From Holdemanella porci (lineage in GTDB: Bacteria; Bacillota_I; Bacilli_A; Erysipelotrichales; Erysipelotrichaceae), in NCBI RefSeq assembly GCF_009696075.1, contig NZ_VUMR01000010.1, forward strand, positions 1 to 48,100: a stretch of DNA of 48,100 nucleotides. The letters run 5' to 3'. Every line of letters starts with the position of its first letter. The stretch's first letter is position 1. Under the pieces are notes generated by a model. It made no database searches and was not told the origin of the DNA. It saw only the letters and a program-made list of their open reading frames with translations. Below are positions 13,346 to 17,291 of the stretch, one piece after another. The position numbers and the translations under genes were made by a program.

Positions 13346-13774
13346 ATGAAAATATCTACAAAAGGTCGCTATGCCCTTCGCCTACTTATAGATTTAGCTC
13401 AACATAATGATTCAGGCTTTATAACACTAAAGGATATTGCCGCCAGACAAAACATCTCAAAAAAATATTTAGAACAAATCGTTCCAATTCTTACAAAAAG
13501 TGGAATGGTCCAATCCAACCGTGGTTTTCAAGGGGGATATAAGCTCGCAAAAAATCCAGACCAAATCCTTGTATATGACGTATTAGTCGCAACTGAAGGA
13601 AATTTATCCTGTGTTGCCTGCCTAGATTCGGATGTAAATACATGTCCAAGAAAAGAAGATTGTACTACACTTTATATTTATGAAGGATTAAATCAAGTGA
13701 TTGAAACCTATTTAAAAGGAATTTCACTACAAGACATTTTAAATCGTGAACAAAGCTTTGATTATATAATCTAA
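13346..13774 (+). CDS. Rrf2-family regulator with a cysteine cluster, likely controlling sulfur genes
   Basis: 142 residues. The N-terminal winged helix starts MKISTKGRYALRLLIDLA, the standard Rrf2 opening, with the recognition segment ISKKYLEQIVPILTKSGMV. Four cysteines at 89, 92, 100 and 106 could hold a metal or Fe-S cluster or sense redox state; spacing differs from IscR. Its neighbours metY, metA and cysK make a CymR-like role in cysteine/methionine control likely, but this is inference from context. The frame opens at 13289, but the ATG at 13346 follows AAAGGGG. A TATAAT box lies just upstream. Confidence 0.85.
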   Translation: MKISTKGRYALRLLIDLAQHNDSGFITLKDIAARQNISKKYLEQIVPILTKSGMVQSNRGFQGGYKLAKNPDQILVYDVLVATEGNLSCVACLDSDVNTCPRKEDCTTLYIYEGLNQVIETYLKGISLQDILNREQSFDYII

Positions 13775-13839: not shown

Positions 13840-15117
13840 ATGAAAACTGAAACAAAATGTTTACATGCTGGCTATGAGCCAAAAAATGGTGAGCCAAGAG
13901 AAGTTCCAATTTATCAAAGTACTACTTTTAAATATGATTCAAGTCTTCAAATGGGAAGATTATTCGATTTAGAAGACAGTGGATATTTCTATTCACGCCT
14001 TCAAAACCCAACAAACGATATTGTCGCAAGTAAGATTGCTGCTTTAGAAGGTGGTATTGCTGCTATGTTGACATCAAGTGGACAAGCTGCAAACTTCTTT
14101 GCGGTATTCAATATTTGTGAAGCAGGAGATCACTTAATTGCTTCTAGTGCCATCTATGGTGGAACATACAACCTATTTGGTGTGACAATGAAGAAAATGG
14201 GTATCGATTGTACATTTGTAGATCCTGAAATCAGTGCAGAAGATCTTCAAAAAGAATTCAAGCCAAACACAAAATGTGTCTTTGGAGAAACAATCACAAA
14301 TCCAACAGTACGTATTTTCGATATTGAAAAATTTGCGAAAGTCGCACACGCAAATGGAGTTCCATTAATTATTGACAACACATTCGCTACACCAATTATG
14401 TGTCAACCAATCCAATGGGGAGCTGATATTGTTACTCATTCTACCACAAAATACATGGATGGACATGCATCTTGTGTAGGTGGGGCCATTGTAGATAGCG
14501 GTAATTTCAACTGGTTAGAACACGCCGATAAATACCCAGGACTAACTACACCAGATGAATCCTACCATGGTATTGTATATGCTGAAAAATTCGGTAAGCT
14601 AGCTTATATCACAAAAGCTACAAGTCAATTGATGCGTGATTTAGGATCAATCCAAGCACCTCAAAATGCATATTATCTAAACTTAGGACTAGAATCATTA
14701 GCTGTTCGTATGAAGGCACATTGTGCAAATGCACTAGCCGTAGCTAAATACTTAGAAGCCAATGAAGATGTTGCATGGGTAAAATATGCAGATCTTGAAA
14801 GTGACCCTCATCATGAATTAGCTAAAAAATATTGTCCGAATGGAACTTGTGGTGTATTGTCATTTGGATTGAAAGCCGATCGTGATCAAACTGAAAAATT
14901 CATGGATAGCCTAAAATTAGCTTCTATTGTAACCCATGTTGCCGACGCAAAAACTTGTCTGTTACACCCAGCAAGTCACACGCACCGTCAAATGAGTGAA
15001 GAGCAATTAAAAGAAGCTGGTGTGGCTCCAGATTTAATTCGTTTCTCTGTCGGTCTTGAAGATGCACAAGACATCATCGACGATTTACAACAAGCACTAG
15101 ATGCCATGAAAGCATAG
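13840..15117 (+). CDS. metY: O-acetylhomoserine sulfhydrylase
   Basis: PLP-dependent enzyme of the Cys/Met metabolism family that makes homocysteine from O-acetylhomoserine and sulfide. 425 residues, the usual length for this branch and longer than cystathionine enzymes. It opens with TKCLHAGYEP; PIYQSTTF and YSRLQNPTND follow, and the PLP lysine is Lys204 in THSTTKYMDGHA. The region RFSVGLED near the C-terminus binds the substrate carboxylate. A GAGG site precedes the start, and a strong terminator follows. The next gene, metA of the acetyl-CoA type, supplies its substrate. Confidence 0.95.
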   Translation: MKTETKCLHAGYEPKNGEPREVPIYQSTTFKYDSSLQMGRLFDLEDSGYFYSRLQNPTNDIVASKIAALEGGIAAMLTSSGQAANFFAVFNICEAGDHLIASSAIYGGTYNLFGVTMKKMGIDCTFVDPEISAEDLQKEFKPNTKCVFGETITNPTVRIFDIEKFAKVAHANGVPLIIDNTFATPIMCQPIQWGADIVTHSTTKYMDGHASCVGGAIVDSGNFNWLEHADKYPGLTTPDESYHGIVYAEKFGKLAYITKATSQLMRDLGSIQAPQNAYYLNLGLESLAVRMKAHCANALAVAKYLEANEDVAWVKYADLESDPHHELAKKYCPNGTCGVLSFGLKADRDQTEKFMDSLKLASIVTHVADAKTCLLHPASHTHRQMSEEQLKEAGVAPDLIRFSVGLEDAQDIIDDLQQALDAMKA

Positions 15118-15196: not shown

Positions 15197-16177
15197 ATGC
15201 CAATCAACATACCTGATGCATTGCCCGCAAAAGACATATTAGAAAGTGAAAAAATCTTTGCGATTGAAGATAAAAGTGCACATAGACAAAGAATTCGACC
15301 ATTAAAGATTGTGATTCTCAATCTAATGCCCAAAAAAATAGAAACAGAAACACAAATCTTACGATTAATTTCTAAAAGTGCACTACAAGTTGATATTGAT
15401 TTTATGATGGTAAAAAACCATGTTTCTAAAAATACAAGTCAGGATCATTTAGTTAAATTCTATACATATTTTGAAAAATTAAAAAATAATTATTACGATG
15501 GAATGATCATTACAGGAGCTCCTGTTGAACATCTAGAATATGAAGATGTGGATTATTGGAGTGAACTTGAAGAAATCATGGAATGGTCTAAAACTCATGT
15601 ATATTCCACACTACATATTTGTTGGGGAGCCCAAGCTGGACTGTATTATCATTATGGAATTCAAAAACATATCTTGCCAGAAAAAGTATTTGGCATCTTT
15701 CCAGAACAATTAGTCGATGAATATGACTTTTTAACGAATGGCTTCGATGAAATCCACTACACGCCGCATTCAAGACATACGGCAATTGATGAAGAAGCCG
15801 TCAAAAAAGTGAAATGCTTATCTATTCTATCTAAAAATGATGAAATTGGTTCAAACATCATTGTCACAAAGGACTATCGTCAAATATTTATTTTAGGTCA
15901 TTTTGAATATGGAAAAGAAACATTAAAAGATGAGTATTTTAGGGATTTAAAAGCCAATAAACCCATCCATATTCCATTTAACTATTTTCCCGATGATGAT
16001 CCAGAAAAAGAACCTATTTTAAAATGGAGAAGCCATGCCAATCTTCTATATCGAAACTGGCTAAACTATGTATATCAATTAACACCATTTGAAATTGAAG
16101 AAATTGGAAAAATAAAAGAACCCATTGGTACGGGTTCTAGAGAAGATCATGGCTATGCCAAGACTTTTACGAAGTAA
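15197..16177 (+). CDS. metA: homoserine O-acetyltransferase (MetA family)
   Basis: First step of methionine synthesis from homoserine. 326 residues of the MetA fold. The catalytic residues fall at the family positions: Cys142 in ICWGAQAG, His235 and Glu237 in GHFEYG. Residue 111 is Glu (GAPVE); in studied MetA proteins Glu111 goes with acetyl-CoA and Gly111 with succinyl-CoA, so the product should be O-acetylhomoserine despite the common name homoserine succinyltransferase. This agrees with the metY upstream, which uses that product. AAGGAG precedes the ATG. The gene has its own TATAAT box at 15160 and a terminator overlapping its stop. Confidence 0.95.
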   Translation: MPINIPDALPAKDILESEKIFAIEDKSAHRQRIRPLKIVILNLMPKKIETETQILRLISKSALQVDIDFMMVKNHVSKNTSQDHLVKFYTYFEKLKNNYYDGMIITGAPVEHLEYEDVDYWSELEEIMEWSKTHVYSTLHICWGAQAGLYYHYGIQKHILPEKVFGIFPEQLVDEYDFLTNGFDEIHYTPHSRHTAIDEEAVKKVKCLSILSKNDEIGSNIIVTKDYRQIFILGHFEYGKETLKDEYFRDLKANKPIHIPFNYFPDDDPEKEPILKWRSHANLLYRNWLNYVYQLTPFEIEEIGKIKEPIGTGSREDHGYAKTFTK

Positions 16178-16197: not shown

Positions 16198-17127
16198 TTA
16201 TTCCGCAAACATTGGAGTAGATAAATAACGCTCACCTGTATCTGGTAATAATACGATGATTGTTTTCCCTTTGTTTTCGGGACGTTTTGCGATTTGAATA
16301 GCGGCATATGTAGCAGCACCACTTGAAATACCTACTAACATACCTTCATTATGTGCAATCAAACGACCTGTTTCATAAGCTTGTTCATTTGTGACTGTAA
16401 AGACTTCATCATATACACTTGTATCCAAAGTATTCGGTACAAAGCCAGCACCAATACCTTGAATACCATGAGGACCTGCATGACCTTCAGACAATACTGG
16501 ACTTGTTGCAGGTTCAACCGCAACCACTTTCACATTTGGATTTTGATCCTTCAAATATTTACCTGTACCACTTACAGTACCACCTGTTCCAACACCGGCA
16601 ACAAAAATATCAACTTTTCCTTCTGTATCTTTCCAAATTTCTGGACCTGTTGATTCATAATGGGCCTGAGGGTTTGATGGATTTTCAAATTGACTTGGAA
16701 TAAAACTGTTTGGTGTGGCAGCTGCCAATTCCTGAGCTTTTGCGATAGCCCCCTTCATACCAGCCTTTCCATCTGTTAAAACAACTTTGGCACCATACGC
16801 CTTCAATAAGTTACGACGCTCCACACTCATTGTTTCAGGCATTGTCATAATAGCCTTATATCCCTTAGCCGCTGCAACAGACGCAATCCCAATACCTGTA
16901 TTTCCACTTGTAGGTTCAATCAATGTAGCTCCTGGCTTGATCAATCCTTTTTTCTCAGCATCCTCAATCATTTTCTTTGCGATACGATCCTTTACACTAC
17001 CTGCTGGATTAAAAAATTCTACTTTCGCAAAAACACTAGCGTCTAAACCTTCTTTTTCTTCAATATGTGTTAATTCTACTAATGGTGTATTTCCAATTAA
17101 ATCTGAAATTGCTTTATATACTGTCAT
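16198..17127 (-). CDS. cysK: cysteine synthase A (O-acetylserine thiol-lyase)
   Basis: PLP enzyme that makes cysteine from O-acetylserine and sulfide. 309 residues, full length. The PLP lysine is Lys46 in [11 protein letters not shown]; substrate loop [10 protein letters not shown] and phosphate loop [14 protein letters not shown] are intact, and ends in the usual [20 protein letters not shown] lies 8 nt before the ATG. It is read on its own from a TTGACA/TATAAT promoter; between that promoter and the gene sits a tiny ORF with two Cys codons. CysK also binds CymR in Bacillus and staphylococci, which is of interest given the Rrf2 gene 2.4 kb away. Confidence 0.96.
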
Positions 17128-17158
17128 TTTCTTTTCCTCCTATTAAACAAATTCAATA

Positions 17159-17191
17159 TTATTCATTTAAAGAGTTACAACATCGCTCCAT
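17159..17191 (-). CDS. cysK leader peptide with two adjacent Cys codons
   Basis: A 10-codon ORF (M-E-R-C-C-N-S-L-N-E, then TAA) lies between the cysK promoter and the gene, 31 nt before the cysK ATG. GGAGG (17204-17200) stands 8 nt before its ATG, as good a ribosome site as that of cysK. TGT TGT occupies 17182-17177. Such a leader could sense charged tRNA-Cys by ribosome stalling; Cys-rich leader ORFs of this type are known from actinobacteria. The sequence shows the ORF and its ribosome site; translation and control are inferred. Confidence 0.55.
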   Translation of the reverse strand: MERCCNSLNE

Positions 17192-17206
17192 AATCAGTAC
17201 CTCCAC

Positions 17207-17262
17207 TTACTATTCCTAGTAACTTTATAGGTATTATAGGAGTTTAACACCCTATTGTCAAT
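17207..17262 (-). promoter_or_regulatory. cysK promoter with a dyad at the transcription start
   Basis: TTGACA (17262-17257) and TATAAT (17238-17233) are separated by 18 bp, a near-consensus housekeeping promoter. Just downstream is a perfect dyad TTACTA-GGAA-TAGTAA (17222-17207), fit for a repressor operator or an RNA stem with a GGAA tetraloop. Several CCTA/TAGG half sites overlap the -10 region. A TAGGAA word also occurs before metY and CCTA before the Rrf2 gene, so Rrf2 control is plausible but unproven. Confidence 0.75.
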
Positions 17263-17291
17263 AAAAAAAGTGATAGAAATTCATCTATCAC
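17263..17291 (-). terminator. terminator of the ascorbate operon
   Basis: GTGATAGA pairs perfectly with TCTATCAC (17270-17277 with 17284-17291), followed leftward by seven T. It overlaps the stop codon of the last operon gene, and the T run touches the -35 box of cysK, insulating the two units. Confidence 0.92.

Follow-up and report, generated by a model that had tools for sequence, protein, structure and literature searches.

Between a strong promoter and the cysteine synthase gene cysK, the window (the whole 48,100-nt stretch of DNA analysed here) carries an ORF of only ten codons with two adjacent Cys codons. This raises the question of whether the ORF is a cysteine-responsive leader and, if so, through which RNA structure a ribosome translating it would act on cysK. 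An earlier note on this DNA had proposed such an attenuator, together with one particular RNA fold as its switch, and both proposals are taken up below along with comparisons to related genomes.

The short ORF between the cysK promoter and cysK

The locus comprises the following genes and signals:

13346-13774, forward strand: Rrf2-family regulator, candidate CymR-like protein (Rrf2 superfamily cut-off passed)
13840-15117, forward strand: metY-type O-acetylhomoserine/O-acetylserine sulfhydrylase
15197-16177, forward strand: metA, homoserine O-acyltransferase, convergent with cysK
16198-17127, reverse strand: cysK, cysteine synthase A (NCBIfam TIGR01139 above cut-off; ATG at 17127)
17136-17141, reverse strand: cysK ribosome site AGGAGG
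17159-17191, reverse strand: leader ORF MERCCNSLNE, 10 codons plus stop, between promoter and cysK
17177-17182, reverse strand: the two adjacent Cys codons, TGT TGT (codons 4 and 5), where the ribosome presumably stalls
17200-17204, reverse strand: leader ORF ribosome site GGAGG
17207-17222, reverse strand: perfect dyad TTACTAGGAATAGTAA, overlapping the putative operator
17212-17234, reverse strand: putative CymR/Rrf2-type operator ATACCTA-N9-TAGGAAT (putative assignment), overlapping the end of the -10 box and the presumed start site
17233-17238, reverse strand: cysK promoter -10 box TATAAT (spacer 17 bp)
17256-17261, reverse strand: cysK promoter -35 box TTGACA
17270-17291, reverse strand: intrinsic terminator of the upstream HAD-hydrolase gene (8-bp stem plus TTTTTTT)

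The cysK promoter (17261-17233) agrees with TTGACA-17-TATAAT at 12 of 12 positions; the earlier note had named both boxes correctly and had placed 18 bp between them, one more than the measured spacer. The perfect dyad downstream of the promoter (17222-17207), the GGAGG site and the 10-codon ORF with two adjacent TGT codons before cysK were all located as described there. The ORF reads ATG GAG CGA TGT TGT AAC TCT TTA AAT GAA TAA (17191-17159), so that a short ORF with adjacent Cys codons, of predicted translation, lies directly upstream of a pathway gene, as in leader-peptide attenuators; a sensor of this kind needs at least two Cys codons, the number present here. For three scanned leader peptides, NCBIfam returned no model.

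Within the genus, two species were compared, i.e., the one represented by the window (G000, a 2.07-Mb draft genome) and its sister G001, in which the leader reads MKRCCSSLNELY up to its stop. The stretch that runs from the promoter to cysK is shared by both, and the roughly 70 bases upstream of it differ. Unchanged in G001 are the leader start, the ribosome site, the frame, Arg-Cys-Cys, SLNE and both arms of the hairpin described below, while the leader has K for E at codon 2 and S for N at codon 6, and terminates two codons later.

A CGA Arg codon stands immediately 5' of the Cys codons (CGATGTTG) at cysK in six out of six genomes (G000, G001, G006, G015, G148 and G177), and slow decoding of CGA or a constraint on the RNA at this position may matter. 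Elsewhere in the window's genome, the leader DNA has a second match (G000:C68), which proved to be unrelated coding sequence, and two further in-frame Cys-Cys starts (C111 and C59) are not cys leaders. Stretches resembling GGAGGA...ATGTATATTTATCT...TTGATGTTGC repeat in the same genome at C35:3575, C45:17258, C56:4903 and C81:3664, and are probably a repeated or mobile element.

Cys leaders across the family and possible control of the promoter

The family sample consisted of 480 nt upstream of each of 119 cysK genes, which were picked by CysK similarity except for those of G015 and G006 (first met via the leader itself), and an ATG ORF was counted as a leader if it had a ribosome site, contained adjacent Cys codons and did not exceed 40 codons. 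Such Cys-Cys leader ORFs were present in 52 of the 119 regions, compared with 0.7 expected from shuffles, and in none of 80 upstream regions of other genes at the same loci. When all 20 residues are compared as doublets, Cys-Cys stands out far more than any other; FF comes next (13 vs 1.7 expected), with an excess that arises partly because the leaders share residues. The leaders span 11 genera, 38 out of 53 coming from two species-rich genera, and the counted leaders are therefore not independent. Their runs contain 2 to 6 Cys, often four to six (e.g., MKHYTVMCCCCCCSVLNEPGPIC and MFENIKHNMVCCCCCCICHSPDGSPGSF, each followed by a stop), encoded by 127 TGT and 43 TGC codons, and the CGATGTTG core is seen again at cysK in other genera. 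A class-wide sample of 57 cysK regions, almost exclusively from other families, contained no Cys leader, and neither did 15 cysK regions of the sister family f2. Matches to the pattern in G066, G068 and G136 turned out not to represent cysK Cys leaders.

The alignment of cysK relatives that the earlier note had suggested as a check showed that the start, the ribosome site and the Cys codons are conserved and that the remaining codons vary, and the comparison across 11 genera speaks for the Cys-sensing leader peptide that it had put forward. On comparative sequence grounds, the designation of the window ORF as a putative cysteine leader peptide gene is well supported. The statement that no T-box is present was also borne out, as Rfam scans returned no T-box or other family at cysK in the window and no T-box or other match in 40 related cysK loci.

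Three further loci were noted during this comparison. On a MAG contig labelled Lachnospiraceae (L193), a leader ORF with CLCC, a terminator and a possible antiterminator lies 251-122 nt upstream of cysK, representing either spread outside the family or a mislabelled MAG, since MAG labels are unreliable. In L179 (JAFWQJ010000075.1), GGAGG is followed by ATG AAA CGA TGT TGA, i.e., MKRC and a stop, just upstream of cysK; it shares ATGAAACGATGTTG with G001, has a single Cys codon before the stop, and could be a reduced leader or chance. G210 possesses two cysK genes (C70 and C214) with a Cys leader (MTIRQMCCCWCMCTR, then stop) at one only, and the paralogs may thus differ in regulation.

The window promoter additionally carries the putative operator ATACCTATAAAGTTACTAGGAAT (17234-17212), the half-sites of which are kept in sister G001. 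It matches the pattern ATNCCTA-N9-TAGGNAT perfectly and is the sole match in the window with fewer than two mismatches; likely counterparts with one or two mismatches are found at cysK in G206, G210, G212 and G213. The overlapping dyad is imperfect in G001 (TTACTAGGAATAATAA), where one base breaks it. The nearby Rrf2-family gene adjoins metY and metA, about 3.8 kb from cysK, and in the scan of the window proteins its product scored 105.5 bits for NF047409 (CymR; cut-off 195) and 124 for IscR (cut-off 207.55). With a palindrome at the promoter and an Rrf2 gene below the CymR and IscR equivalog cut-offs, CymR-like repression is plausible and the regulator a candidate only.

The perfect operator pattern, its counterparts and the neighboring Rrf2 gene would also be in line with a simpler explanation, in which the short ORF arose by chance or serves generic re-initiation, and cysK is controlled solely at initiation by a CymR-like repressor at 17234-17212. 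However, the operator pattern was derived from these same cysK promoters and showed no enrichment across the whole genome, so that a 'CymR regulon' based on the pattern was rejected. Moreover, an ATG ORF led by a ribosome site and containing Cys-Cys arose by chance in only 40 of 20,000 dinucleotide shuffles of the window leader (0.2%), and both the recurrence of the CGATGTTG core in other genera and the wide distribution of Cys leaders with antiterminators in the family argue against repression alone, which we regard as very unlikely. Where the earlier note had set a Cys leader against CymR control, the leader stands and the either/or does not, as a CymR-like operator is located on the same promoter.

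RNA structures downstream of the Cys codons

The switch originally envisaged was a pairing of the RNA 5' end AGTTAC (17224-17219) with GTAACT (17178-17173), which runs over the second Cys codon and would be broken by a stalled ribosome. Both complementary 6-nt stretches exist, and G001 keeps the pair via a G-U wobble with a pairing probability of about 0.2. Nevertheless, we give this switch hardly any credence, because its predicted probability in the window is 0, 17% of shuffles contain such a 6-nt complement, and the pairing alone would leave the cysK ribosome site untouched.

In the relatives, an intrinsic terminator was identified between leader and cysK in about 40 of the leader-bearing family loci. 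For 28 of 41 leaders, the stretch from the Cys run to the stop matches the terminator's 5' arm in predicted pairing better than 95% of shuffles, and this antiterminator pairing begins at a median of 10 nt past the last Cys codon, just beyond the edge of a stalled ribosome. When partners were swapped among 34 leaders, the pairing energy was -12.9 kcal/mol compared with -17.5 kcal/mol for own antiterminator partners, and none of 20,000 permutations was as good; this preference for the own partner represents covariation of leader ORF and terminator with the sign expected for classical attenuation. Judged from their sequences, the terminator-bearing relatives would qualify as textbook ribosome-mediated attenuation.

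The window itself contains no intrinsic terminator between 17159 and 17127 and so does not conform to the trp type, and a terminator is also absent in several genera besides the window's genus. Instead, the following structure is predicted:

17161-17174, reverse strand: 5' arm of the predicted sequestering hairpin, CTCTTTAAATGAAT, beginning 2 nt after the second Cys codon
17137-17152, reverse strand: 3' arm of the predicted hairpin, ATTTGTTTAATAGGAG, including GGAG of the cysK ribosome site

Here CUCUUUAAAUGAAU, immediately 3' of the Cys codons, is predicted to pair with the cysK ribosome site in a hairpin of 14 bp (stem part UUAAAUGAAU). A stalled ribosome was modelled in the RNA fold as a blocked footprint from -14 to +15 relative to the P-site. 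With this footprint, the predicted unpaired fraction of the cysK ribosome site changed from 0.29 in free RNA to 0.93 and 0.91 with Cys4 and Cys5 in the A site, respectively, and in G001 from 0.42 to 0.97 (Cys4) and 0.91 (Cys5). A similar rise on stalling is predicted for G006 (0.05 to 0.7) and G177 (0.18 to 0.83), and a weaker one for G148 (0.27 to about 0.57); in G000, G001, G006 and G177 the arm opposing the ribosome site sits beneath the stalled ribosome. Alternative RNA structures set by the position of the ribosome are hence predicted for the window as well as for relatives. The spacing in this class (~2 nt) is opposite to that of the terminator class (~10 nt), as required by its opposite logic. 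A ribosome modelled as waiting at the leader stop codon also holds the hairpin open while it is there. In these models, the candidate switch with better support than the AGTTAC-GTAACT fold is one in which the codons following the Cys pair sequester the cysK ribosome site.

The stability of the window hairpin is modestly unusual (z about -2 to -2.4, with 4% of shuffles equally stable), and as the window's genus comprises only two species in our comparison, the hairpin shows no covariation; the sequestration step is thus one that we infer. The Cys leader could be real and its output in the window a different one, namely mRNA stabilisation, opposition to Rho-dependent termination or altered coupled re-initiation at cysK. 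This would fit with comparative support that covers the leader ORF and the Cys codons, with the only modest significance of the hairpin, and with three terminator-less relatives having leaders (G015, G213 and G210) whose cysK ribosome site is not predicted to be sequestered. In G015, the stop of the leader (L035 1455-1547, about 30 codons, ending in ECFFRCCYSKQKYEFIIQ) overlaps the cysK ribosome site, an arrangement more suggestive of coupling than of sequestration. On the other hand, sequestration is predicted in G000, G001, G006 and G177 and, more weakly, in G148, and we consider a different output in the window to be unlikely.

It is likely, in our view, that the ORF is the gene of a cysteine-sensing leader peptide and controls the translation of cysK by attenuation. 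The sequence supports the first two steps, in which the strong promoter would give rise to an mRNA whose first ORF encodes MERCCNSLNE, and the RNA after the two Cys codons could fold into the 14-bp hairpin that buries GGAG. With plentiful Cys-tRNA, the ribosome would complete the leader and depart, the hairpin would form and cysK would be poorly translated. With scarce Cys-tRNA, the ribosome would stall on TGT TGT with its leading edge over CUCUU, leaving the cysK ribosome site free. Most sensor-bearing relatives would use the other output, a terminator controlled by an antiterminator just past the stalled ribosome, and a CymR-like Rrf2 protein probably represses initiation at the promoter as well. 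For the family, we are inclined to believe that the whole family senses cysteine at cysK through leaders with Cys runs, that the sensor was rewired between termination and translation-initiation outputs, and that the one in the window is under a CymR-like repressor.

Relation to known leader peptides and cysteine control

In Clostridium perfringens, cysK-cysE is under the control of a Cys T-box (PMC2940859). The window would share cysteine-dependent control of cysK with this T-box and with CymR in Bacillus and Staphylococcus, yet it differs in having no T-box and in that CymR-like control may coexist with a leader. The open-access literature searched yielded no account of a Cys leader preceding cysK in Bacillota. 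If true, the proposed mechanism would add a cysteine-sensing ribosome-based switch to a Bacillota group described via CymR and T-boxes, and would provide a natural series in which a single sensor is coupled to a terminator in some members and to a ribosome-site hairpin in others, with the spacing past the Cys codons (about 10 or about 2 nt) as a sharp testable prediction. In addition, it points to dozens of very short genes likely to be overlooked by standard annotation.

His leader attenuators have been reported in Erysipelotrichales, the B. cereus group and Peptostreptococcaceae (PMC9413887), and a His leader in bacilli (PMC2965389). The terminator-bearing cysK relatives match trp/his-type attenuators in having an ORF with regulatory codons, a terminator and an antiterminator; the differences are the Cys codons and cysK as target and, for the window, the lack of a terminator and an apparent action on the ribosome site. 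In Actinobacteria, polycysteine leader ORFs precede cys operons of Mycobacterium and P. acnes and cbs of B. longum, with the Cys run near the stop codon and no conserved terminator (PMC1262725), and cysteine-responsive attenuators of mycobacteria were described by Canestrari 2020 (doi 10.1111/mmi.14498, cited in PMC9094748 and PMC13236596), the title of which calls the mycobacterial ORFs leaderless. Common to both groups are short ORFs with Cys runs before cysteine synthesis genes and attenuation by cysteine supply, which is predicted here. Compared by the descriptions in these papers, the ORFs studied here differ in having ribosome sites, and most leader-bearing relatives in having a clear terminator and antiterminator.

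The uORFC-8-2 motif before cysS in Rhodobacterales contains tandem Cys codons, an upstream ORF and a terminator (PMC8632094). All three elements recur in the leaders described here, whereas the motif belongs to Alphaproteobacteria, precedes a tRNA synthetase gene and is unrelated in sequence. Altogether, we regard the window ORF as a real cysteine leader peptide gene within a family-wide set, which according to the folding models most likely acts by freeing the cysK ribosome site. In this it resembles the translational attenuation of erm and cat, where a ribosome stalled on the leader frees a sequestered ribosome site in response to an antibiotic; in the case of cysK, the trigger would be a lack of Cys-tRNA.
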